NCBI GenBank assembly: GCA_963575745.1
Contig: CAUYUJ010017828.1
Coordinates: forward strand, 93,501-157,500
Origin: Prorocentrum cordatum
Lineage: Eukaryota > Sar > Dinophyceae > Prorocentrales > Prorocentraceae
DNA length: 64,000 nt
Direction: 5' to 3'
The stretch's first letter is position 1, and each line of letters opens with the position of its first letter. Below, piece by piece: positions 13,503 through 64,000 of this stretch. Below the pieces are notes generated by a model. The model was not told where the DNA came from. It saw only the letters and a list, made by a program, of their open reading frames with translations, and did not search any database. The translations under genes and the position numbers were made by a program.

Positions 13503-13759
13503 CTGACCTCAAGCACACCAAAAGGGGGTCCAACTCAAAAGGGGTGGTGCAATAGATTTGGGACAATTTTATTGCAAATGTATTGCGCTGGAGAATTGCA
13601 CTGCGTTGTGTTGCAAGTAATGTATTGCACGCGAAAATCCAGCAATAGATTGTGCCCCGGAATGTATTGCACGCCCCACATGCGATGCAACTCCACAAAT
13701 CTATTGCACCAAATCTATTGCACCACCACCTTGTTGCTGGACCCCCTTGTGGGTCAACC
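13503..13759. mobile_element. TATTGCA inverted-repeat element, shorter copy
   Basis: Starts near AAAAGGGGGTCCAAC with GGTGGTGCAATAGATTTG and ends with CAAATCTATTGCACC then TGGACCCCCTTGTGGGTCAA, so the ends are inverted. The interior repeats TGTATTGCA several times. It is a shorter relative of the element at 58406-58769. There is no coding capacity, as expected for a MITE-like element. Confidence 0.7.
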
Positions 13760-13779
13760 CAATGACCCCATGCATTGCT

Positions 13780-49009: not shown

Positions 49010-49195
49010 TGGACGGTTCCCGAAATCCGGGCCCCCCCTTCCCAAAAACCATCTCTTGGACATCGACCCGTCGCTTGCGCTGGCCTCCCACCGTTGGAGG
49101 CGGCCCTGATCTACTTCCGCCGCCTTCCGCCGAGGAAGAGACGCCGACTCGTTCGATCCCTCGAAGGGGGGCCCGCCTTGGAGCGCCCCGTCTCG
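49010..49195 (-). mobile_element. Relative of the EF-hand gene's 163-nt intron element
   Basis: Read on the minus strand, GATCGAACGAG, then TCTCTTCCTCGGCGG with AAGGCGGCGG, then GATGTCCAAGAGATGG and TTTTTGGG occur in the same order as in the intron at 59232-59394. There they read GATCGAAGGAG, TCTCTTCCTCGGCGG, GATGTGTCCCCGAGAGATG and TTTTTGGG. Here no flanking coding exon is recognised. It has no terminal inverted repeat. Confidence 0.5.
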
Positions 49196-50795: not shown

Positions 50796-52413
50796 CTACA
50801 GGCTCACGACGCCGGGCTCCGCCTCGGAGCCTTCTCGCACGCCCACGTGGCCGATGTCCTGCGTGACTGCGCTCTTGCATGGCCCCGGCCGGGGCCCGGG
50901 CTCCTCCGCGCTAGGCGCGCGCAGGGGCTCCTCGCTTAGCACCTTCAGGTTGTCCAGCTCCTGCTCGGTATCGTTTAACCGATCCCCATCCCCATTCCCA
51001 TTCCCTTCGAGACCCCCGCCAAATTACCACCCCAGTTGGGGATACGTACACCCCTCGAAACCCGAAGGGAGCGACTTATATCCCCATCTAGGGGCGTAAC
51101 TCGGCCAGTGGGGCCCAGGCCACGCAGCTGGGGATGGGGATCGGTGAAACGATACTCGCCTGCTGCAGCGTGCGCCGGCGGTACTGCTTCAGCTCGGGGT
51201 TGTTGAACAGCGTCACCAGCACCCAGAACTTGTTCCTGATCCGCTTCCTCCTGGCGCTCTGCTCGACCTCGCCCCTCGTCGGAGGAGCGGGGGGGAAGGC
51301 GACGTGCAGGTACGGAATGAGAAGTGTCAGGAAGCATCGCCGCACGAGGTTGCGCCGGTTGCTCTGTGTGAACGCCATGGCCAGGAAGGCGGCGTAGCAG
51401 GGGTCGAGGGCCTTGACGGCCTTCTCTGGGAGGACCGTGTGGTGCATCAGCGTCGAGGTGTAGAGCGCCCCAAACACCGAGAATACGAAGCGGGCTGGCA
51501 CCGTGAAGGCAGCCCAGACAATGTTGAGCATCACCAAGACGTACCTGGAGGCCTCCCAGATGGGATCGGAGCAGATGGGGTCGGAGGATCGCGCCGCATC
51601 GGCGATGCATCGGCGATGCATCGGCGATGCACCGGCGATGCATCGTCGACGTCGGCGATGCATCCGCGACGTCGACGTGAAGCACATCGGGCTGCACATC
51701 GAGCCGCATCGGCGATGCGGCGCGATCCTCCGACCCCGTCTACTCCGACTCCATCTGGGAGGCCTAGAGTACCAGAGCGGCGCGAAGATCGGCGGGGCAC
51801 GTATCTCTCCATCCTTTATGAGGAGCTTGTCCACAACTACCGACTTCAGGACAAACTTGACGGCGAACACCGTAAGAAACGGATAGACATAAGTTTCGAG
51901 GAGGCGCAGAATGAGAGGTTTTGTAGTTTCGATGAAGAAGAGAACCACTGGAGTCACGAGAGATACCACAATCACGAAAGTCATGCACGTGCCAACAAAG
52001 AAGGCCAGGAGCGTGAGCACGATGAGACATCCAGGGAATGCCGCGGACACGGAGAACGACCCACGGAAGTGATTGCGCAAGCCCGCCGCCGAATACGACT
52101 TGTCGCCGCCCTGAATCTTCTGCACCATGGAGTCGAATGCCTTCGTCGTCTGGTAGATGGAGTTGATGGCCAGGAAGAGGCCGCCGATGATCGACACCCG
52201 GGTCCCGAGAATGACCAACGGCGCGACGATCCGGAACTCGTCCGTCTTCGCGATGCGGAAGAGCGAATCCAGGAGCGCCGCGAGCTGTGTCGTCACTTCC
52301 TCCCAGGCGCTGCCCGAGGCCCACCCCTCCGTCAGCCTCTGGCGGCGGGGGGACAATCGGGGGTGGACAGGAGGAGGAGGAGGAGGAGGAGGAGGAGGAG
52401 GAGGCATGGGCAA
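50796..52413 (-). CDS. Multi-pass membrane protein, STRA6-like (tentative), three exons visible
   Basis: STRA6-like proteins are multi-pass membrane proteins; animal STRA6 takes up retinol, but the protist role is unknown. Exon 1 ends at 51773, exon 2 is 51544-51160, exon 3 is 50960-50796 and ends in TAG. Removing introns 51772-51545 (GT-AG) and 51159-50961 (GC-AG) keeps phase: LW|YVLVML and RTLQQ|ELDNLK. Hydrophobic segments include LVILGTRVSIIGGLFLAI, CLIVLTLLAFFVGTC, FVIVVSLVTPVVLFFI, YPFLTVFAVKFVL and VLVMLNIVWAAFTVP. The C-terminal domain has DPCYAAFLAMAF, QSNRRN, then RIRNKFWVLVTLFNNPELK and YRR, the pattern that suggests STRA6-like. A likely exon-1 acceptor is CGCCAG before AGGCTGACG (coding from about 52338), with the GGA run as its pyrimidine tract. 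The polyproline start to 52413 is then intron. Further 5' exons are not found. Confidence 0.6.
50961..51159 (-). mobile_element. Intron 2 of the STRA6-like gene, a 199-nt inverted-repeat introner
   Basis: On the coding strand the intron starts GCGAGTATCGTTTCACCG and ends TTAAACGATACCGAGCAG. The ends contain 26-nt inverted repeats (GTATCGTTT, one mismatch, then ACCGATCCCCATCCCC). CGAG lies outside each repeat, a possible 4-bp target duplication. The donor CAG/GCGAGT is a GC type. Exon phase is 0 on both sides. No second copy was noticed in the window. The interior has further short palindromes and no coding capacity. Confidence 0.65.
51545..51772 (-). mobile_element. Intron 1 of the STRA6-like gene, a 228-nt inverted-repeat introner
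   Basis: On the coding strand it begins GTACTCTAGGCCTCCCAG and ends CTGGGAGGCCTCCAG. Inverted arms of nearly 60 nt run through AGATGG, GTCGGAG, GGATCGCGCCGCATCG. The centre repeats GGCGATGCATC and TCGACGTCG. GGTAC stands at both junctions, matching a short target duplication that also supplies GT at the donor side. Length 228 is a multiple of 3 and no stop occurs in frame, so an unspliced message would add 76 residues. A closely related element lies at 53918-54144. Confidence 0.7.
52367..52404. repeat. GGA run next to exon 1 of the STRA6-like gene
   Basis: On the gene's strand this is a TCC/CCT run ending about 30 nt before a CGCCAG. It could serve as the pyrimidine tract of a 3' splice site. 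Confidence 0.8.
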
Positions 52414-53395
52414 AAAGCCCTTGAGCGAAAGCTGCCAGGGCTACTCCACGTGCGCACGCCGCCGCACTCCGAATGCACCCCAGCGGGGCAGCTAACCGTC
52501 CAACACACGACCGAATGCATTCGGCGAAACGCACGTCGATTCGCGAAACCGACTGCGGACTGAACCGGCACCACCGCATGCCCACTTCGAGCGAACCCGT
52601 GCAGATTTCCTCAATCGACTCGTCTGAGGGGGTGGCTCGTGACAGTTTTTGTATCTCCCGGGGAACGGTCGTTACCCCGGGTCGGGGTTGGGGTGGGGGG
52701 CGGGCGGGAGAATAACAGTAACGACAGCCGCGGCGTGCACCCGCCAGGGTGCGTCCGCGCCGCCGGCGCATCAATCGCATGTGTACACCACAACGTGTAA
52801 GGGGGGGGGGTCCAGCCCCTCCCCAGTACGATCGTTAGCGCCACCCCGAGGGGGAGGGGGGCGGAGGATAGCAAAACCCACCCCAACCCCCAGCAAGGAC
52901 CCCCACCTCCGACCTGGTGATCCAGAGGGTCCTGGCTGGGGGCGGAGGTGGTTTTGGAGTGGTTCCCGCGGGCCAAGAAACAACCCCAGAGATCCGATGT
53001 AGTGATTTTTTCAATGCGGGGTCCCTGGAAGTCTCGACCCATTCCCCCGGGCCGGTTTTTCGTCCTGAATCGTTATTCGACGGTCCCGCGGCCCGGCGAG
53101 GGCCCCCAGAGGCCAAAAAATGCGAAACATCTCCGCCTCGATCTCTTCAGGAGGAGAAAAAGGATGAGGAGAAAAAGGAGGAGGAGAACGAGGAGGAACT
53201 TCTGTGGCGTCCGAGGGCCTCCGTGCCTCCGCGGCGCGGCCGGCTGGCGGCGCCCGCGCCTCCGGCGCCGGGCGGCCGTGGCCCTCTGGCGAGGGCCGCA
53301 GCCGCCGCGCGGCGAGCCCGGCGTCCAGGGCGCACTGGGGCGTGGCCTCGCCCACCGTGGTGGAGAAGACGCCGAGCTCCTCTCGGCGGCGAGCG
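52414..53395. other. No supported exon; inverted copy of the dispersed 150-nt repeat at 52960-53130
   Basis: The stretch should hold 5' exons of the STRA6-like gene if it is complete, but I could not identify them. At 52960-53130 the words ACCCCAGAGATCCGATGTAG, GGCCGGTTTTTCGTCCTGAA and GGCGAGGGCCCCCAGAGGCC match the dispersed repeat in reverse orientation. After it comes GAGGAGAAAAAGGATGAGGAG-type purine sequence. Confidence 0.45.
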
Positions 53396-53399
53396 AGGG

Positions 53400-53770
53400 A
53401 GGAGAGCTTCGAGGTGCGAACTTGGAGGTTCGAGGTGTCCAAGGCGGTTTTGTCGCAACTTTCGGCCGTTGTCGGGCCCCGGGGCCCCCGAAACTCAATC
53501 CGGGGTGAGGAACCGCGTCGGATGGACCCTGGGAGGGGTCCGGGGACCGATTCCGACCGATATTCGGCGACGCGCCAGGGGGGGAATTCCGAAGGAGAAA
53601 GCCTTCTCAGAAGGCTTCGGGACTTCTCAGAAGCCCTCTGTCCTTCGGAGAAGGTGCTCTGTGTCTTCGGGGAAGGCTAGAGAAATTCTCGGAAGGCCGG
53701 GGGAATTCCGAGCCTTCCGAGAAGACACGGCCCTTCTCACTTCCCCCCCGGGCCCCGGGCTGGCCGCCGA
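53400..53770 (-). repeat. CTTCTCAGAAGG dispersed repeat, reverse copy 1
   Basis: Begins CTCGGCGGCGAGCGAGG, then a GTTCGAGG-type word, CCCGGGGCCCCCGAAA-like sequence, CGTCGGATGGACCC, TTCGGCGACGCGCC and repeated CTTCTCAGAAGG palindromes. The order is the reverse of 56805-57180 and the same as 58780-59165. The centre holds several GTTCCGAG(n)CTTCTC hairpins. Confidence 0.75.
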
Positions 53771-53917
53771 TCCTCAGCTGGAGGCCTCGCAGATCTCGCC
53801 ATCGCTCGGACGTCCACTCCCCGTGCATTTTTTCGATTTCGCGCGTGTTGTATGTAGTCGATCGATGCTCCTCGATAGTCCTCGCCAACAAGAAGAAATG
53901 CGCACATCCCAGCGATG

Positions 53918-54144
53918 CCAAGAGATGGGATCCGAGTAGATGGGGCTCGAGGATCGCGCCGCATTGCTATTGCATTGCCGATGCATCGACGATGTATTGA
54001 CGATGCAGCGTCGACGTCGGCCAAGCATCCGCGACGTCGACGTGGAGAAAACCGGGCTCCACATTGAGCAGCATCGCGGATGCATCGGCGATGCGACGCG
54101 ATCCGCCGACCCCATCTACTCTGACCCCGCCTGGGAGGCCTAGA
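53918..54144. mobile_element. Second copy of the STRA6-like gene's intron 1 element
   Basis: GATGGGATCCGAGTAGATGG, GAGGATCGCGCCGCAT on the left and GCGATGCGACGCGATCC, CTGGGAGGCCTAGA on the right match 51545-51772 in the same orientation. The central TCGACGTCGGCC and ATCCGCGACGTCGACGTG are also shared. Length is about 227 nt. The left end has lost the CCTCCCAG part and neither junction shows a good splice pair, so it is probably an intergenic or decayed copy. Confidence 0.8.
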
Positions 54145-54179
54145 TCAGCAGGGGCCCCTGGCCCCCCAACCCAGACATC

Positions 54180-54310
54180 CGGCCGCTCCAACTTTTTCGA
54201 TGCGTGGGCCCGGAGGTCTGGACCACTTCCCTGGGACCGGTTTTTCGTCCTGAATCCGTTTTTGACGCTCCGGGGGCCCGGCGAGAGCCCCCAGAGGCCG
54301 AGAACGGCCA
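54180..54310 (-). repeat. Dispersed 150-nt repeat, reverse copy
   Basis: ACATCCGGCCGCTCCAAC, GGTTTTTCGTCCTGAATCCG and GGCGAGAGCCCCCAGAGGCC match the copy at 52960 and are the reverse of 17600-17760. Confidence 0.6.
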
Positions 54311-54483
54311 AAAGCCCGCCGCTCCGATTTTTGTTGAGCGTCAGATCTCTGGGAAGCTCAGTGCTCAGACCCCTTCGCGTCGTGACACGGATTACGACGG
54401 ACAGTTTGGCCCCGTCTGCGCGTGCTCTTCGGTCTTCGGAGGCCCTCGCCGGGGCCCCAGGACCGTCGAAGAACGAGATACGG

Positions 54484-54666
54484 CTGCGCGCAAGAGTGAC
54501 CCTGGGCAAGGGTGACCTTTGGTGCGCGACTTTGGGGGAGCGCGAGGGGGCCAACACACAAGCGCACGAAACGCTACTGCCGCATCGCGTTCGGCAGTTG
54601 GGGGACCTCAGTGGGCCCGCATCAGAGGTCACCCCCGGCGAAAGGTCACTCTTACGTGAAGTCGAA
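54484..54666. mobile_element. GTAAGAGTGACC element, second copy
   Basis: CAAGAGTGACCCTGGGCAAG and CTTTGGTGCGCGACTTTGGG on the left, and AGGTCACCC, GCGAAAGGTCACTCTTACG and AGTCGA on the right, match 46094-46276. The word GTAAGAG of the first copy is GCAAGGG here. The target duplication is not clear. Confidence 0.8.
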
Positions 54667-54699
54667 CGATGCAGGATGAAAGCCCCGTGCTGGGGAATG

Positions 54700-54832
54700 G
54701 GTCCACGCGCGAGGGGACCAAACGCAAGCGCACAAGACGCTACTGCCGCATCGCGTTCGGCGACTAGGGGACCCTATTGGGTCCGCATCAAGGGTCACAC
54801 CGGCAAAAGGTTACTCTTACGCGTAGTCGAAC
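54700..54832. mobile_element. GTAAGAGTGACC element, truncated third copy
   Basis: Starts inside the element (GAGGGGACCAAACGCAAGCG) and continues CTACTGCCGCATCGCGTTCG to TTACTCTTACGCGTAGTCGA. The left inverted repeat is missing. It lies directly after the second copy, so the pair may derive from nested insertion or unequal exchange. Confidence 0.7.
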
Positions 54833-55565
54833 GAAGGATGAAAATCTGGCCCCGGGGACATGGGTCTAGACCTATGGGAGAGGACGCCCAACTCCTCCGC
54901 AGGGCACCCAGAGGCTCCCGCGCGTGTTAAGACATGCAGTGCCCAGGCTCCCTCGCGCATAAAAGAAAAATCACGGCGGGCGGTTTTGCGTCATGTTTTC
55001 GGCCTCCCGAGGGCCCTCGCCGGGCCTATGGCCCGTCAAAAACGACGCGGATGAAGAACATGTCCCTGGGAATGGGTCGAAGCCTCTGGGGGTCAACGTC
55101 GGCTCCTCAGCAGGCAGGGTCAGTCAGCATCGGATCGGGACCCAGAACTCCAACTTCTTGAAGTTACACCCTTGCGGCAGAAGACCCTAGACCGCTTTGC
55201 ACAGATTCGATGGGAGCCACGGTGGGGATCACGATCCGACGTGGGGTCACGATTGGGCGATCGGGCTAAGGACAGGGGCATGTATATGTGAATCCTGGCC
55301 TGGTAAGGATACAGGAATCGGGACGTGGATACTGGGCGATATCCGTCGACCCCTTGTGAGGCCACCAGGCTCCACGGATCAGACTTGCTGCTTCCTGCGC
55401 CAGTTCCAGTTTCCAGTCTCCAATGTTTCTAGTCCTGCTTTCTGCTTCCCATGGTGAATTGTTCAAACTGTTGAAGTCCGCGCGAGGGGGGGAACAGAAA
55501 AGGACTCTGGTTACCACCACCTGGGAGGCTCTCAGAATTTCTGGGGGGTCCTGGGACACATGAAA
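54833..55565. other. No supported gene; copy of the dispersed repeat near 54960-55100
   Basis: GGGCCCTCGCCGGGCC(n)TGG, CCGTCAAAAACGA and GGGAATGGGTCGAAGCC mark a forward copy of the dispersed repeat. The rest, including CGATCCGACGTGGGGTCACG, has no recognisable feature. Confidence 0.45.
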
Positions 55566-55567
55566 CT

Positions 55568-55850
55568 ACATGAGATTCGCGCCCCCCGAAGCAATATTCC
55601 TTGGCAAAGTATGAAATTCTCGCGTCCCCGAAGCCATACACCCTCGCACATTACATTGTGTTCGTGCTCCCGAGACCCAAACTCCGAGTAAATTATGCAA
55701 GACTCGTGTCTCCGAAGGTCTCGTGAATTACGCAATGCTTGCGCCCCCGAAGCCACGACCTTCCGTAAATTTCGCGTTCTTCGCGTTCCCGAAACCAGAT
55801 ATCATTGTGAAGTAAGAATATTCGCGCTCTCGAGGCTACAGTCCTGAATA
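55568..55850. repeat. Degenerate 52-nt tandem repeat, five to six copies
   Basis: Copies share a word of the form TTCGCG(n)CCCGAAGCC and end in an AT-rich AAATTATG-like part, near 55575, 55628, 55665, 55725, 55780 and 55830. Copies differ widely. No gene. Confidence 0.65.
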
Positions 55851-56572
55851 AAAGGCCACCAAGACGGTGCAAGATCTAGCCGCCACCGCCCCCAGGACCC
55901 TCCCCTCGGAACCCTCCCTGGACCCCCCCCAGGACCGCTCCAGGCACACCCCCAGAGGGCACGTCAGCTCCAAAAAGCGTCCCCGACGACTCCAAGAGCG
56001 CCCTCCCTCCCAAACAACGTCCCCGACGGCTCCAAGATCACCGAATCCGGAGACCCCTGGATCGGCGGCACTGGCCGGAGGCCATTACAATAAAAGGCCC
56101 CCAAGACGGTACAAGAAGCCTCCGAGACGCCAAGGGTGCCCCCAGGCGCCCAAGACGGTCCAGGAGGCCCCAAGTGGCGCTCCAAGAGCACCCCCAAGAG
56201 GGGGCCAAGAGGCCAGCACCTGCGATTTTGCATCGGTCTTCAATGGGTTTTGGCACGCTCATGTCTCCAGTGGCCCCCGTTCGGAGCTCCGACGCTGCTT
56301 CGCGAAGGCGCCCAGGCCTCACAACACAGCTCTTGCATACCCCATTATCCGAGACTGGGGGCCACCGGCAGGGGGCGAAGCCCTCACGGATAAAAGGGAT
56401 AGGGCTAGATGGGGCAGGGCAAGGGGTGGCACTGGGAGGTCACGGGAGGCAACGAGAGCCCACGGGATGCCACGGGGGCAACTGGATACTACAGAAGGCC
56501 TCGTCGTCCCACCGATTGCGCATCCGGCAATCCATCTACTCGTTTCTGAAAGCAATCGCTCATCGGTCGAAG
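55851..56572. other. No supported gene; 240-nt spaced direct repeat
   Basis: AATAAAAGGCC(n)CCAAGACGGT occurs near 55849 and 56089. Between and after are degenerate CCAAGAG(n)GCC words like those elsewhere in the window. Confidence 0.5.
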
Positions 56573-56750
56573 TACACGTCGTTCATTTCAAATCGTGCTC
56601 ATTTCTAATTGTGCTCGTTTCTAATTGTTCCTGGCCCCCGAGTGGCCAGAAAAAGGCCCAGGATAGAACAATTAGAAATGGAACCGTCTTTGCCCCCAAA
56701 AAATCAAAGAGCTTTTCGAACACATAGAATTGAACAGTGTGTATATTGGA
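56573..56750. mobile_element. TTTCTAATTGTTC hairpin element, copy 2
   Basis: CGTTCATTTCAAATCGTGCTC, TTTCTAATTGTTCCTGGCC, AGGATAGAACAATTAGAAAT and CAAAAAATCAAAGAGCTTT follow the order of 16586-16765. Confidence 0.7.
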
Positions 56751-56804
56751 ATATGGGAATCCAAGAAGACCTACTGTCAACGGCTGGCGTGTATGCAAAA
56801 CTCT

Positions 56805-57180
56805 TCACAGACAAGCAAGGCCTTCTCAGAAGGCTCGGAAGTCGCCTGGCCTTTTGAGAAGTTTTCGAAGCCCTCCCCGAAGACAAACAAAGCAAGTTCT
56901 CAGAAGGCGCGAGGGCTTCCGAGAAGTCCCGCCGCCTTCTGAGAGGGCCTTCTCCTTCGCACTTCCCCCTGGGCGCGTCGCCGAATGTCGGTCAAAATCG
57001 TTCCCCGGACCCCTCCAGGGGTCCATCCGACGCGGCGTTTCGCTCCGGATTGACTTTCGGGGGCCCCGGGGCCCGAAAACGGCTCCCAGAGGCCGAGAAC
57101 TGCGACAAAAACGCCTCGAACCTCGAACCCCGAAGCTCGAACCTCGGAGTTCGAACCTCGAACCTCGAAGCTCGCCGCCG
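56805..57180 (+). repeat. CTTCTCAGAAGG dispersed repeat, forward copy
   Basis: CCTTCTCAGAAGGCTCGGAAG, GCCCTCCCCGAAGACAAAC, CTCAGAAGGCGCGAGGGCTT, CCTCCAGGGGTCCATCCGAC, TTTCGGGGGCCCCGGGGCCC and repeated CTCGAACCTCG occur here. The reverse complement of nearly the same text is at 58780-59165. Frames crossing both copies give the same peptide words, but stop-free length is short and no domain is visible. Confidence 0.8.
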
Positions 57181-57289
57181 ATTAGGGGCCAGCAGGCCCC
57201 CGACGCGGGCCCCCCCCCCGGCCAGGCGGGGGGCGATCGCGCCACGCGGGGAAAGCCCCCCGCAAGCCAGGCTGGGCGGTGCACACGCG

Positions 57290-57472
57290 CGCCCTACGCT
57301 TCGGTCGGGCGTGTACCCCTACAGGGAGATTTCGAACGAAAAATAAAAAACGACCCTCAACATATTCAAAAATACGGAGAAATTGTTTAAACACTCCCCC
57401 CTGGCTCTTCTTTCTTTGAACTATTTTTGAATAGTCCTCCTGTAGAGGCACATGCCCGACCTAACTCTACGC
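57290..57472. mobile_element. GGTCGGGC terminal inverted-repeat element, second copy
   Basis: TCGGTCGGGCGTGTACCCCT with ACAGGGAG on the left is inverted relative to CCTGTAGAGGCACATGCCCG and ACCTAACTC on the right. The AT-rich middle (TTGAATAGT and TTCAAAAATAC) is typical of the family. The next 60 nt, with GGGGCGCCGGCGTGGGGCCC, recur at about 58315-58345. Confidence 0.65.
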
Positions 57473-57985
57473 GGAGATCTCCTCTGCCCCCAGGGGCGCC
57501 GGCGTGGGGCCCACCGCTGCCCTCGATGGCAGAACGGTGTTTGTAGAGGGCAACGAATCCCCCCCATAATAACCACTCCGACAAGCGAAGCTGTTTAGTA
57601 AACGCACCCAAAGAAGGAATCGAGCAGGGTGGGGCTGATTAGTCGACGCCCAGGGCCGTTGAGTAAACGCCGGTTATCGGGTCCAGGTGGTTTTTCCTCC
57701 CTTGCGGTTTTGAAGGCTGATCTGCCTTCCAAACAACCGCACTTACGCAGGAGCCCAGGGTTCGGGCGTTGGCAGGACAGGGTTTAAGGGGACCTGGTTT
57801 AGTGATGTGTCCTGGGGAACGCGCCCCCCCCCCCCCCCCCCCCCGCCCCTTTCCACTGACCGGAACTGCCGTCACCCGTCAAAAACACCAGCTACCGCAG
57901 ACCAAATTGTCAGTGATTCTGGCGATACTACTAGACGGGTCCCCGTACCTGGGGTTGCAAGGTTTCCTTCGGGGCCGTAGGTGAC
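57473..57985. other. No supported gene
   Basis: Mixed sequence with a long C run at 57823-57844. No exon, RNA or repeat family recognised except the short duplicated phrase at 57473-57531. Confidence 0.4.
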
Positions 57986-57989
57986 CCGA

Positions 57990-58192
57990 GGAGGAGGAGG
58001 AGGAGAGGAGGAGGAGGAGGAGGAGGAGGGAGGGAGAGGAGGAGGGAGGAGGAGGAGGAGGAGGAGGAGAGGAGGAGGAGGGAGGAGGAGGAGGAGGAGG
58101 AGGAGGAGGAGGAGGAGGAGGAGGAGGAGGAGGAGGAGGAGGAGCAGGAGGAGGAGGAGGAGGAGGAGGAGCAAGAGGAGGAGGAGGAGGAC
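57990..58192. repeat. GGA tract
   Basis: About 200 nt of GGA/GAG repeats with two GGGAGGGAG interruptions. Confidence 0.95.
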
Positions 58193-58405
58193 GGGTCGCC
58201 TAAGCTCTTCGGAGAAACCCTCTACCCTTCACTGGGGTCCTGGCTATACCCGAAGGGTGGACCCCCGGCCAGGGCTTTGGCGGTGCAGGCGCGCGCGCCC
58301 TCCGCGGGGAGCTCCTCTTCCCCCATGGGTGCCGGCGTGGGGCCCACCGCGGCGGTGGAGCCCGCCTCTCGGCGGCGAGCGAGGCGGAGAAGCGAGGATC
58401 TGTCT

Positions 58406-58769
58406 GGTTGACCCAAAAGGGGGTCCAGCGACATCGGGGTGGTGGAATAGATCTGATGCAATAGATTTGTGGGGAAGTAACAGATTTGGGGTGTGCAATA
58501 CGTTCCAGTGCGCAAGATGAGTAGCTGGGTTTTCGCGTCCAGCTGCAAGGGGGTGGTGCAATAGATTTTGGGCAATGGTATTGCACATGCATTGCGCCGT
58601 ATAATTGTATTGCATTGAGTGTTAAGTAATGTATTGCGCGCGAAAATCCAGCAAAACATTTGCGCCCTGGAACGTATTGCACGCCCCAAATGTATTGCGA
58701 CCCCACAAATCTATTGCACCAAATCTATTGCACCACCCCCTTGTCGCTGGACCCCCTTCTGGGTCAACC
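58406..58769. mobile_element. TATTGCA inverted-repeat element, full copy
   Basis: Left GGTTGACCCAAAAGGGGGTC then CAGCGACA and right TGTCGCTGGACCCCCTTCTG then GGTCAACC are inverted, with arms of about 70 nt that include GGTG(n)AATAGAT. The interior repeats TGTATTGC. There is no transposase. A shorter copy is at 13503-13759. Confidence 0.8.
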
Positions 58770-58779
58770 CGATGATTCT

Positions 58780-59165
58780 CACTTCGAGGTTCGAATTTCG
58801 AGGTTCAAACCTCGAGGTTCGAGGCATTTTTGTCGCAGTTCTCGGCCTCTGGGAGCCGTTTTCGGACCCCGGGGCCCCCGAAATTCAATCCGGAGCGAAA
58901 CGCCGCGTCGGATGGACCCCTGGAGGGGTCCGGGGAACGATTTTGACCGACATTCGGCGACGCGCCCAGGGGGAAGTGCGAAGGAGAAGGCCCTCTCAGA
59001 AGGCGGCGGGACTTCTCGGAAGCCCTCGCGCCTTCTCGGAGGTTTTCTCGGTCTTCGGGGAAGGCTCCGAAAACTTCTCAGAAGGGCAGGGGGATTTCCG
59101 AGCCTTCTGAGAAGGCCCGCCTCTTCTTCCTTCCCCCCCCTCGCTCGCCGCCGAGCCTCGACGCC
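58780..59165 (-). repeat. CTTCTCAGAAGG dispersed repeat, reverse copy 2
   Basis: Reverse complement of 56805-57180 nearly word for word, from GGTTCGAATTTCGAGG to CTCGCTCGCCGCCGAGCC. Its right edge meets the second EF-hand exon. It may therefore have been inserted into that gene's next intron or have truncated it. Confidence 0.8.
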
Positions 59166-59523
59166 GCTCATCGCGGTGGAGGTCGAGCACGGCATCACGT
59201 CGACGATGCCATCCAGCTCCTCGGGGCTCACCTGGCCGAGTTGGGGAACCCTGAGCCCAAAAACGTGTTCATCTCTCGGGGACACATCTTTGTTACTCCC
59301 GCCGCCTTCTGCCGACCTTGCGCCGCCTCCCGCCGAGGAAGAGATGGCATCTCCTTCGATCTTCGGAGGCACTGCCCATTCTGGAACGGCTCACCTGGCC
59401 GTCGCCGTCCCTGTCCAGGAGCGCCTTGAGGTTCTCGGGACTGGGGTCCCTCATCACGTTGAGAAGGACAGTGGTTCTGTACGCGACCTCGTCAAGCTCG
59501 GCCTCGTGTGACTCAGAAGCAAG
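59150..59523 (-). CDS. EF-hand protein gene fragment, two exons split inside the Ca-binding loop
   Basis: EF-hand loops bind calcium in calmodulin-like sensors and in many larger proteins; the parent protein is unknown. Exon 59523-59395 follows CCTGGCAG, is 43 codons and reads ELDEVAYRTTVLLNVM, then PENLKALLDRDGDGQ. Exon 59231 downward reads VSPEELDGIVDVM. Joining CAG to GTG gives loop DRDGDGQVSPEE with acidic residues at positions 1, 3, 5 and 12 and Gly at 6, flanked by helices ENLKALL and LDGIVDVM. The intron is 163 nt. Upstream, the open frame at 59808-59548 (with SLSSRLADYV and CGHIGAMLETILSHWE) may contain earlier exons but is in another phase with no certain junction. Downstream the reading enters a dispersed repeat near 59160, so the end is arbitrary. 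It may be a truncated gene. Confidence 0.55.
59232..59394 (-). mobile_element. 163-nt introner inside the EF-hand loop, flanked by a 14-nt duplication
   Basis: CGGCCAGGTGAGCC occurs on both sides of the insert on the coding strand (+ strand 59385-59398 and 59222-59235). The donor GTGAGC lies in the first copy and the acceptor CAG in the second. Splicing thus removes one duplicate plus the insert and restores the pre-insertion exon exactly. The insert has no inverted ends. Internal words TCTCTTCCTCGGCGG and TTTTTGGG are shared with 49010-49195. Confidence 0.75.
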
Positions 59524-59547
59524 CTGCCAGGGAAACGCTGGCCGTCG

Positions 59548-59808
59548 TCAACATCCTTCCCAATGGCTCAATATTGTCTCCAGCATGGCCCCTATGTGTC
59601 CACACATTGCCCTTGGATCGTTCTGCCCTGAGAGCGTTCTCAGGGGGGCCAGCGACTTCGCAAGACGCGTCTGACAGACAAGACTATCGATATACCTCGT
59701 GATGCTTGAGATTAAAGCCGTCAAGAGAGCCGTGGATGAGGCCCACGGGGTCACATAGTCTGCCAACCGAGAGCTCAGCGATACCACGGCGCATCGAAAT
59801 GGTTCCAC
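59548..59808 (-). other. Open frame upstream of the EF-hand exons, unrecognised
   Basis: Reads AVVSLSSRLADYVTPWASST, YIDSLVCQTRLAKSLAPLRT and CGHIGAMLETILSHWE, looks like ordinary protein and is on the EF-hand strand. A competing frame (59684-59830) reads RATNVKLDPRGTISMRRGI, so which part is real is unclear. It may hold 5' exons of the EF-hand gene. No family recognised. Confidence 0.3.
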
Positions 59809-59892
59809 GAGGGTCCAGCTTTACGTTCGTCGCCCGTCCCAGGGGCTTCCTTGGGGCATTTGCTGGGCCGCCTCGGAGGCGATGAGGGCCAA

Positions 59893-60105
59893 TACTTCGA
59901 AGAAGAACGAATGCCATATAAAAATAAACTTTTGGGCGGTCCGCCCGGATCTCTTGGATGTGCGCTGGACCACCCTCCCCGGCGCGCGGAGCGCGCCGGG
60001 GGCGTCGGCGCCCCCGGGGGGGCCGGCGCGGATCTAGGAAATCCGCGCGGAGCGCCAACAGTTTGTGTTTATGGCGTTTTCTCTTCTCCGAATACTGTCC
60101 GAGAG
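59893..60105. mobile_element. CATAAAC-type inverted-repeat element, copy 3
   Basis: GAAGAACGAATGCCATA then AAAATAAACTTTTGGGCGG on the left is inverted relative to GGAGCGCCAACAGTTTGTGT and TTATGGCGTTTTCTCTTCTC on the right. The centre has CCCCGGCGCGCGGAGCGCGC. It resembles 49361-49560. Confidence 0.65.
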
Positions 60106-60436
60106 GAGGAGGAGGAAAAGGAGAAGGAGGAAGAGGAGGAGGAGGAGGAGGAGGAGGAGGAGGAGGAGGAGGAGGTGGAGAAGGCGGAGGAGGAGGAGGA
60201 GGAGGAGGAGGAGAAGGGGGAGGAGGATGATGAGGGGGGATGAGGGGGAGGAGGAGGGGAGGAGGAGGAGGAGGAGGAGAGGAGGGGGAGAGGGGGAGGA
60301 GGAGGAGGAGGAAGAGGGGGAGGAGGAGGAGGAAGGAGGAGGAGGAGGAGGAGGAGGAAGAGGAGGAGGAGGAGGAGGAGGAGGAGGAGGAGGAGGAGGA
60401 GGAGGGGAGGGGAGGAGGAGGAGGGGAGGAGGAGGA
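60103..60436. repeat. GGA tract
   Basis: About 330 nt of GGA/GAG repeats. From 60437 to 60920 there is no supported gene. That stretch holds GACTGGACTGGACTGG and a CCACGACCCC(n)CACCACCCCGA repeat near 60700-60755. Confidence 0.95.
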
Positions 60437-60921
60437 CTGGACTGGACTGGAACTCATGGAAGCCTGGATTCCATCACAACAGCAACTCTGACTGCAACGT
60501 GAAATCGCAAAGAGAGCATGACAACTGCTGCACGGAAGACTTCAGAGAAGAGGCCTGCGAGCCTCCGCCACTACACGATGATATGGATGGCTGCCGCGCT
60601 CTGCACAAGGCAGCACTGGCCTTGGCCAGCAACCCCAGGCGGCACGCGACCGCACTCAGGGGGCTGGCTCTGAGGCGCGCGGTTCGAGTCTCCCCCTTCC
60701 CGCTCCACGACCCCGCGGCCCACGACCCCCACCACCCCGACCACGACCCCGTCCCCCTCCCACAGAAGCAGGCGTTGGCGGTGGCATCGCGATCACTGGG
60801 GTGGCTGGGAGTGCTGGGTGACTATATACAGCGACCTTATTGTGCATGCTATCTAGGATATCTTCCCTCACTACTCCGCGAGAGACCAGTTCGCGGAAAC
60901 GATCAGAATTCTGAGAGGCTC

Positions 60922-63900
60922 TCACGACTCTCTGTTGGCCAGCAGTCTGGAGATCTCTCTCTCGAGTGGGCCTCTGGGAGCCGCTCCCGATAGGAGCCGC
61001 CCCCCCTCCAACTTCAGAAGACGCTCGAATAAGTCCGCTAGGCGACGACCCACCCCCATCTCCCTGTGGAACGAGAACATGATGATGGCTTTCTGCGGCT
61101 CTCCCTCGATTTTCTTCATGGTTTTGATCCGAAACATCCCGCGCGCCCGAGCCAACTCGTTCATGCCGATATTCTTTATCTTGCTCTCCCACAGCTCTCT
61201 GAACTCCGTTATCAATTTGCGCTCCTGCTCCTCTCCTGCTCCTGCTGCTGGGCTGTGAGTGGCGCCATGTGCCGTGGCAGCGACGAGAATGTGCAAGTGG
61301 GGCGGGCCTCGCGCGAGCATCTCCTCCCTGGCGGTGCGCCTGGCCTCGTCCCCTTCCCTCCTTCGTGCGGTCCTTGAGGGCCTTCGAATCGTCGTCGTAT
61401 GTCTTGCCTCCCTTGAGGCAAGCTGCTGCCAGACCGCTTCCCGCCAGGATTTCGACTTTGATGAAGACGCATGCCGCCATGGCGGCGATCTCCCGACTGT
61501 TGCTGAGCACGAGGCGGGCCATTGCATTGGCGAGCATGCGGGGTGCTTTGTCTCCCTGGGCCGACTGCTTGACATGATTGGGCTTCCGTTCGGCTTGGGC
61601 CTGTTCGACTGTGGCGGCCCCCCCCCTCGGCCCCCTCCTTCCTTTTCGGCGTCTTGGACCGCGAGGGGAAGCTCAACTCCTCCATCGGCTCTGAAGGGGG
61701 CCATCACGGAGGACGGGGCGAACGGGGCGATCACAAAGGGCAGGTGGCTGCAGAGATGGTCACGCAGGTCCGAAAGACTCGAGCCCGTATAATCACAGCG
61801 CGGACATGTAAACGAGGGTGGCATACCAGCCACAGTTTTCATAGTAGCTGGCCCACGTGTAATGCAATGCCCCCGAGAAATAGACCCTTGGAGGTGACGT
61901 CCAGCATTAGAGGTACTTGCAAACACCTGTCTGCAGTGAACACATGTTGCTGACTGTGAGTGTATGTGCGACATTTCTGACATGGTGAACTTGGCGAAGA
62001 TGATCCATGTAGTCCCGTCTATTGGAGAATTCCGTTTTGCACCTCTGGCCTTCAACCTCGAGCTCACACGCGAACATGGGGTCCTCGGCGCTCCCATCCG
62101 CGGCCACTGCTGTCGAGTCGTGAGTGCCCGCGGCCCCCGCCGACGTCTCGGCGCTATGACGTGTCGGCGCTCGTCCGATAATCTGACCCTCCCCAGGAAC
62201 CCCTCCAGTGAAGTCCCAAAATCTGCTAAGATAGCCTTATTCAAGTTGTCGGCGTACTTAATCAACGAGAGGTCTGCCCTAATGTCGCCCCACTGTGCGT
62301 TGAGATCCTTAGCACTTGGGCCCCTACTCCAGAGCTCCCGCCCCCATCCCAGGATCGGCCTCGAGAACGTGGCCAAGAACATGGCGACAATGTAAGGATC
62401 ACCCATTGTCCCCCCCTGCTTCGGCTGAGCTGTGCATCTGGCCCCGCTCGTCGGGAGTTCAACCACTGAGTTCCGATGGCGCTGACGACGTACTTCAACA
62501 TCGTGGTCCGCACAATGTATACCTACGGTAGTGTCCGTCGACTCGTGCGTGCTACTCGCAAATGCATTCGACATGTCTTTCATGCATATACAATGAGTTC
62601 TTGACGCCGCTCGTAAACGCCACATCGTACAATTAGATATAAGTACTGCGTTCTCACGCCGTCGGCCCCGTACAAACCCGCGGTCCTGGATAGAGGGCGT
62701 TGGTCGCAACTTCGTCGAACAATATCCTTTCCCTACCGTCGGGGGCACGTGCGCGACACGCTTGCCCAGAGGGCCTACCATCAATGACTTCGGGAGCGCC
62801 GCTGCCTGACTGCGGTGCCAGTAAAGGGGGGTGATATTATGCCGTCGAATCCTCAATAGTCCAACGTGCAAGAGGAACCACAGGGTCTTGTTGTCGGGGG
62901 GGTCCTCGCTCGCGCCCACGCCTAGGTTCTGCTGCGTTCGCCACCGAGGAAAGAGACACATATGCCAGAGTTCGAGAGGGGCCGTGCCCTCTGGGACCAC
63001 ACGCCTCTTGGGCGCGCCCCTGAAATAAGAACGAAGGTTCTGGACATCAGTCTTAACTAAGGAGGTAAGCTCTGGGTCGTCGAGCTCGTAATCGTACGTC
63101 TCGCCCTCCCTCTCAGCTCTCCACTCCTCCCATTCAATCGGTTCAACCTGCATGTCGCCCTCGCAACCAGGTTTCTGCCACACGTGAAGCCAGTCCTCAG
63201 CATCTGGGGGCGCACCGGTGGCCAATTGTGCATCACGGCGTTTCGGCCCATACCGACAACGAGCTGCACGACGGGAGGCTTTCATCGCCTCCGCGGTACG
63301 CCTCCTGGCCCAACATTCACTGGTTTCCTGAAGCAGTCTGGCACGAAACTGACGCAGGTGTTGCCGACGTTCCTTGTGGAGCTGGGCTGAGAGGGCCTTC
63401 AGCTGAGCATCGATCTCCTCGGCCCCCTCCTCGCCCCCCTCCTCCTTCCGCCCTCGTAGCTCGACGCGCTGACGAAGCAGGTTTCGGCGGCGTTCACAGT
63501 CCTCTCCGTGCCCTGCTCGTCTCTGAGTGTCCCCCGAGAAGTGCACCTGCCCCGCCCGAACCAAGGTTCCCTCCAATATCTCAAATATTTCATCTGGGGA
63601 CGCGTAGTCACGAAGATAAGGGACTCCTGCCCCCACCAGCTCCTCATTGACGGCCTCTATAAATTCCCACCTCCCCCTCCCAGATCTGAGCCCCTCCATC
63701 ATGTCATCGTAATTCCAACGGATCCTATCATCAGCTGGTCGCATCAGTCCACCTTTATTGAACTCCATACTGAGCACCACAGGCAGATGATCCCGAGGAG
63801 GGGCTCCCCTGATAGGCTGTAATTTAGCTCCTAGTCGACGTAATGGATGGCAATGCCGAGTAAGACGTGCTAACCCTTGGGGGTAACAGATAAAATCAAT

Positions 63901-64000
63901 ACAGCTCGAAGAAGTATTCCCGAAAAAAGTATGCTCTGCCCTCTGTTGTACATTCCCCGCTATCATATGGTGTTTCTCTAGCAGCCCGCGGAGTCGTTCA
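60922..64000 (-). mobile_element. LINE retroelement: endonuclease end, RT, zinc fingers; 5' part outside window
   Basis: A 1014-codon frame runs from the right edge to 60922 and is open at the edge, so it is partial. The first 70 residues match the end of an exonuclease-endonuclease-phosphatase domain: LLEKHHMIAGN, SSSCIDFI, then RDHLPVVLS. RT motif A is DMSNAFAS (about residue 463, near 62579-62559). Motif B is QGGTMGDPY and motif C is KYADNLNK (about 62256-62244). The last has Asn where the second catalytic Asp normally stands. Two C2H2-like fingers follow: CVHCRQVF(n)H and FTCPRCDY(n)LRDHLCSH. The C-terminal ending SGAAPRGPLER is as I recall for dinoflagellate LINEs. Between about 61690 and 61390 the likely reading is another frame (NAMARLVLSNSREIAAMAA, CVFIKVEIL), so two compensating frameshifts are present. 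The copy is probably inactive. Confidence 0.8.

Follow-up and report, generated by a model that had tools for sequence, protein, structure and literature searches.

We found that the minus strand of a 64,000-nucleotide stretch of Prorocentrum cordatum DNA (contig CAUYUJ010017828.1, positions 93,501 to 157,500; hereafter the window) carries a predicted 163-nt intron inside an EF-hand coding region, with a perfect 14-nt direct repeat at its borders. The predicted spliceosomal intron was probably gained by the insertion of approximately 149 nt at an AG|GT site, with a 14-nt duplication of the target. Intron gain via insertion with AG|GT target duplication is the best reading of the locus, for which we infer both an insertional origin and a recent date. 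In favor of insertion, we counted that the perfect repeat lies on a canonical junction, that both flanks carry a coding signal and that one junction alone restores the loop. Counted against it were a Pfam EF-hand score below the cut-off, an empty homologue search, a competing acceptor and the appearance of comparable repeats in 5/100 resampled windows.

When the whole window was searched on both strands, the 14-mer CGGCCAGGTGAGCC occurred exactly twice, both times on the minus strand (Table 1). The two copies were identical at 14/14 positions and were spaced 163 nt apart. An AG|GT-containing direct repeat is therefore present at both borders of the predicted intron, which starts with GTGAGC, ends with GGCCAG and has AG|G at either border; its excision yields ALLDRDGDGQVSPEELDG. 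The first-pass annotation had placed the donor and the acceptor in separate repeat copies, and this was borne out, as CAG|GTGAGC lies in copy 1 and CAG|G in copy 2. Its junction, 59395/59231, was likewise correct, but the outer limits that it gave for the feature, 59222-59398, were 3 nt too low.

For a junction trial, we joined and translated every AG|G pair whose donor lay between 59449 and 59394, whose acceptor lay no lower than 59130 and whose intron measured 40 nt or more. The sequence DGDGQVSPEE was restored by one of the 41 pairs, namely 59394/59232, which agrees with the earlier proposal that the EF-hand serves as a check on the junction, its loop being complete only after excision. The trial region also contains a competing acceptor at 59251, absent from the earlier account, which lies 19 nt upstream of the predicted acceptor and follows a T-run; its use would shift the frame and break the EF loop. 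Because donor and acceptor sequences are both kept in each repeat copy, competition between sites is possible. From the sequence, we infer that the transcript is spliced at the predicted junction 59395/59231.

Table 1. Positions of the predicted intron, its border repeats, coding flanks and related features in the window.
Feature	Position	Strand	Basis or remarks
Direct repeat copy 1, CGGCCAGGTGAGCC	59388..59401	-	repeat family D4; carries donor CAG|GTGAGC
Direct repeat copy 2, CGGCCAGGTGAGCC	59225..59238	-	repeat family D4; carries acceptor CGGCCAG|G
Predicted GT-AG intron, 163 nt	59232..59394	-	repeat position, joining, junction-pair trial
Inserted stretch, 149 nt, between repeat copies	59239..59387	-	inverted termini absent; one diverged colinear relative
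Upstream coding exon part, encodes HEAELDEVAYRTTVLLNVMRDPSPENLKALLDRDGDGQ	59395..59508	-	open frame; GC by codon position 0.69/0.36/0.86 over 59502-59395
Downstream coding exon part, encodes VSPEELDGIVDVMPCSTSTAMSGV	59160..59231	-	GC by codon position 0.58/0.50/0.96
Competing acceptor GCTCAG|GG, TTTTTGG ahead	59251..59256	-	joining 59394/59251 and sequence
Diverged colinear relative of insert	49036..49167	-	93/111 aligned columns identical, 31 gap columns; same strand

Inserted stretch and surrounding DNA

Terminal inverted repeats were absent from the insert: the best end-to-end inverted match was 6 nt, a length that 303 of 1000 shuffles also reached for 30-nt ends, and the longest inverted match inside was 7 nt. 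Close to the two ends of the intron, no inverted repeats of 8-20 nt were found. The RNA fold of the insert was ordinary (z +0.34), with 122 of 200 shuffles folding as well, and Rfam revealed no match in the window at the gathering threshold. The insert core, searched as a DNA pattern, had 0 matches in the viral_contigs and genome_contigs collections, which by description hold no eukaryotic genomes. With inverted termini and RNA hairpin both negative, the mobile element was rejected as a reading of the insert.

For similar introns at other sites, the window offered one diverged relative of the insert, which lies in DNA without recognised coding and at no recognised intron; around it we found only two repeats, of 8-9 nt, both further out. 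The insert aligned to this relative with a score of 92.5; the highest shuffle score was 69.5 for 500 shuffles aligned to that region and 64.5 for 15 shuffles scanned over the window. In a control, however, 11 of 25 random 149-mers from the window matched elsewhere in the window at 92.5 or more, and the stretch at 49167-49036 was thus rejected as proof of a repeat family. By this control, the insert is typical repeat-rich DNA of the P. cordatum genome with no recognised element. The earlier claim that it is an element or introner was left unsupported by the missing inverted termini, the ordinary fold and this control.

A true introner would be a special case within the insertion reading, in which the 149 nt are a copy of a mobile intron-making family and the splice sites derive from the target. 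The duplicated target does hold both splice sites, the colinear relative exceeds all of its shuffles, and P. cordatum introns are reported to be enriched in introner elements (PMC10666404). Nevertheless, the terminal inverted repeat is absent, 11 of the 25 random window pieces match as well as the relative does, and the relative sits at no recognised intron. The repeat length counts on both sides, since 14 nt is within the 10-15 bp given for MITEs (PMC7789003) and above the range of 3-9 bp that is cited for introners already characterised (PMC9860276). Taken together, we regard a true introner as credible but rather unlikely. On the same figures, the description of the 14-nt repeat as the textbook expectation for an introner was too strong, although the length suits MITEs, and the description of the insertion as young agrees with the identity of the repeat copies, which is its sole basis.

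The GC content of the window was 60.0%, and that of the P. cordatum genome is given as 59.7% (PMC10666404). A dispersed repeat lies just downstream of the EF exon part (58782-59159); it matches 53407-53775 at 76.9%, while its portion 58783-59117 matches 57162-56819 in inverted orientation at 90.7% and its portion 58954-59152 matches 34251-34054, also inverted, at 78%. Next to it is a long imperfect inverted repeat (58403-58772) with arms of 113 nt that are 88% complementary and 144 nt between them, which could be a foldback element; a sequence related to the stretch 58537-58775 lies at 13528-13765 (84.5%). On the other side of the locus, an open frame of 1025 codons on the minus strand (60925-63999) runs to the window end. 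A C2H2 zinc finger matched this frame weakly, below the cut-off, and the frame has residues reminiscent of a LINE-type endonuclease region.

Coding flanks and the EF-hand loop

The joined flanks read AELDEVAYRTTVLLNVMRDPSPENLKALLDRDGDGQVSPEELDGIVDVMPCSTSTAMSGV with no stop, and the joined 180 nt had a GC3 of 0.90 and a GC2 of 0.42. GC by codon position in the insert was 0.56/0.69/0.57, without the coding pattern of the flanks. Among the 180-nt segments of the window in all frames and on both strands, 125/127,642 were as extreme and open as the joined flanks, a count for which the bounds of the tested stretch had been picked after the ORF had been seen. These 125 segments formed nine clusters, of which seven were low-complexity by eye and two fell within a same-strand ORF, 51091-52440. 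This 450-codon ORF (minus strand) has its coding composition and strand in common with the EF exon and matched RBP_receptor weakly (E 4.6e-5, below the cut-off).

The start of the upstream exon part is provisional, with an acceptor-like AG near 59512; a 108-nt coding-composition test recovered this part from 59508 on. The 3' end of the downstream exon part is also provisional. Dispersed repeats reach 59159, only 72 nt past the junction, and the gene copy may therefore be degraded.

The EF-hand loop pattern comprises 12 residues, with D at positions 1, 3 and 5, G at position 6 and E at position 12. The joined loop DRDGDGQVSPEE has each of these residues, and the corresponding Pfam match, to EF-hand_5, stayed under the cut-off of 25.9 bits, with 21.0 bits (E 2.1e-4) for the joined sequence and 12.2 with the insert retained. 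For EF-hand_6, the scores were 16.7 joined and 12.9 retained, and Pfam matched nothing when the downstream frame was extended back across the insert. The earlier claim that splicing restores DGDGQVSPEE thus holds at the sequence level, as both frame and loop are intact after joining.

A search of solved structures returned 252 distinct sequences at E 1, and the best 60 of the 252 were nearly all calmodulins. Among the solved-structure matches listed, the best E for a calmodulin was 1.2e-5, which is a whole-chain sum, and no single stretch passed. A homologous protein was not found among 68 and 70 candidates, none of which had an E of 10 or less, and a further comparison gave no candidate. Comparison of the EF exon with viral_contigs gave 52 pattern matches, of which 0 were confirmed. 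Pfam, run on all three minus-strand frames of 55923-60900 and of 50923-55920, found no further EF-hand and gave only weak matches to RBP_receptor and Wzy_C, both below the cut-off.

These observations bear on the possibility that the insertion left a disrupted gene copy in which the intron does not work, any transcript either retaining the insert or being mis-spliced. The competing acceptor at 59251, the empty homologue search and the dispersed repeats from 59159 on would all fit such a locus. However, coding periodicity and the EF residues are intact on both sides of the insert, and the donor CAG|GTGAGC is close to the usual consensus; a non-working intron is accordingly judged to be quite unlikely. 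Counted against the predicted GT-AG intron itself is a report that GT donors are present in only 24.7% of P. cordatum introns (PMC10666404).

Chance level of the repeat

Ten exact direct repeats of at least 9 nt that contain AGGT and are spaced 60-1000 nt apart were present in the window, and three of the ten reach 14 nt. The second 14-nt repeat (47154) belongs to a 158-nt tandem duplication, and the third (12592) lies amid GAG/GAC-rich sequence that surrounds a CCT triplet array. Five of 100 Markov-resampled windows held an AGGT repeat of at least 14 nt (mean 0.05 per window), and the 14-nt length taken alone is only moderately surprising. The repeat is persuasive because it lies exactly on a canonical junction within a coding domain: with CAG|G given at both ends, the probability of at least 10 further identities is ~1.5e-5 at local composition. 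Since EF-hand codons determine the exon halves of the repeat, both intron ends would need to imitate them independently.

We also scanned for imperfect repeats, taking AG|G pairs 60-800 nt apart with a GT donor and a score of at least 12 and then applying a low-complexity filter. The scan revealed 64 GT-donor pairs, of which 63 were removed by the filter, which also takes out some pairs other than simple triplet repeats, so that the 59394/59232 pair alone remained. Among the filtered pairs, 54645/54809 is a diverged duplication, with 87/103 columns identical to its upstream flank, and the pairs 18600/18323 and 8741/8070 match their downstream flanks over 33 and 49 columns. The insert at our locus matches its own flanks over at most 11 and 7 columns. 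With GC, GG or GA donors, 150 AG|G pairs in the window score at least 12 and survive the filter.

Two further intervals in the window have long imperfect border repeats. The first, 54645-54809 on the plus strand, is a GT-AG interval of 165 nt with the border repeat CCGGCGAAAG|GTCACTCTTACG..., and, when it is joined, one reading frame out of three stays open for 94 codons. The second, 45421-45237 on the minus strand, is a GA-AG pair 185 nt apart with the border repeat CGTGGTCCCATAG|GAAGCTCCGCCGA, and is a possible non-canonical introner-like interval.

If the intron were old and its ends alike by coincidence, the donor and acceptor consensus would account for some of CAG|GTGAG, and GTGAGCC would by chance open the downstream exon. 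Some of the 14 matches are indeed at splice-consensus positions, and flanking repeats of at least 5 bp are described for 26% of conserved Drosophila introns (PMC3443670). We nonetheless consider an old intron decidedly unlikely in view of the ten further identities and of the EF-hand codons, which explain both exon halves and leave both intron ends to match independently. Tandem duplication of an exonic stretch with AGGT, a model that needs AGGT at both junctions, as found here (PMC3443670), and that has other cases of similar spacing in the window (47154, 54645), is highly implausible and was rejected: the insert holds no copy of its flanks (7-12 nt in a second comparison) and lacks such similarity to the exon, its sole longer match, of 15 nt, is to the dispersed repeat downstream and in inverted orientation, and the repeat itself is unmutated.

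Probable mode of intron gain and its significance

Under the preferred reading, intron gain by insertion, approximately 149 nt of ordinary repeat-rich genomic DNA would have inserted at an AG|GT site inside the EF-hand exon and left a 14-nt target duplication. The donor CAG|GTGAGC would then come from the upstream copy and the acceptor CAG|G from the downstream one, and splicing from the first to the second would return the uninterrupted DRDGDGQVSPEE loop. A transposase, target-primed reverse transcription and staggered double-strand-break repair are each possible as the agent of insertion. Because inverted ends are absent, a cut-and-paste transposon is no more likely than target-primed reverse transcription or repair-mediated capture. 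The duplications left by target-primed events are typically some 7-20 bp long.

The length of the repeat is no strong sign of a new mechanism, because 14 nt falls within the 10-15 bp stated for MITEs (PMC7789003) and within the 4-30 bp (mean 11.4; 213/213 introns) described for direct repeats near splice sites, Symbiodinium included (PMC11782384). In the latter study, the repeats lie at or near the borders and their copies differ in most cases (71-100% similar), whereas the copies found here are identical at 14/14 positions and lie exactly on the junction. Identically repeated intron boundary sequences have already been described in dinoflagellates, according to PMC7789003.

We compared the locus with known cases of intron gain and found it to be similar to each in part. 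In Florenciella introners, as here, the target supplies both donor and acceptor, the two splice sites being co-opted from the insertion site (PMC9860276, Fig. 2E legend), and mRNA is mostly left unchanged; those introners form many-copy families with repeats of 3-9 bp, the range cited for known introner families, in contrast to the single locus with a 14-nt repeat and no terminal inverted repeat described here (PMC9860276). Daphnia neointrons, attributed to staggered double-strand-break repair, also have an exonic direct repeat flanking the insert with no need of transposon ends, but their 33 repeats are of 4-12 bp (PMC4202315). The established model of transposon insertion into AGGT with target duplication predicts the doubled AGGT at both ends and the precise gain seen here, although our insert is without a recognised transposon (PMC3443670). 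Finally, the introner elements of Prorocentrum cordatum and Amoebophrya are likewise dinoflagellate intron sequences with direct repeats at their borders, yet they are defined, in the Farhat/Dougan sense, by inverted repeats of 8-20 nt, absent here, and direct repeats of 3-5 nt, as compared with 14 nt at our locus (PMC10666404, PMC7789003).

Intron birth by insertion is an already known phenomenon, and this locus is a good single candidate for it, adding one candidate to a phenomenon reported for 12,253 introner-derived introns of the dinoflagellate Polarella glacialis alone (PMC11453091). It is doubtful, in our view, that the introns of this genome include a family that lacks terminal inverted repeats, inserts with target duplications of ~14 nt centred on AG|GT and derives both splice sites from the target. 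If such a family does exist, its repeat length would distinguish it from introners, for which 3-9 bp is cited, and would suggest staggered-break repair, target-primed reverse transcription or a type of MITE that has yet to be connected with introns. At this locus, the apparently duplicated target is still intact, which would make the ancestral exon directly readable, and the EF-hand provides an independent check of the junction. If further copies exist, repeat length could tell the insertion mechanisms apart.
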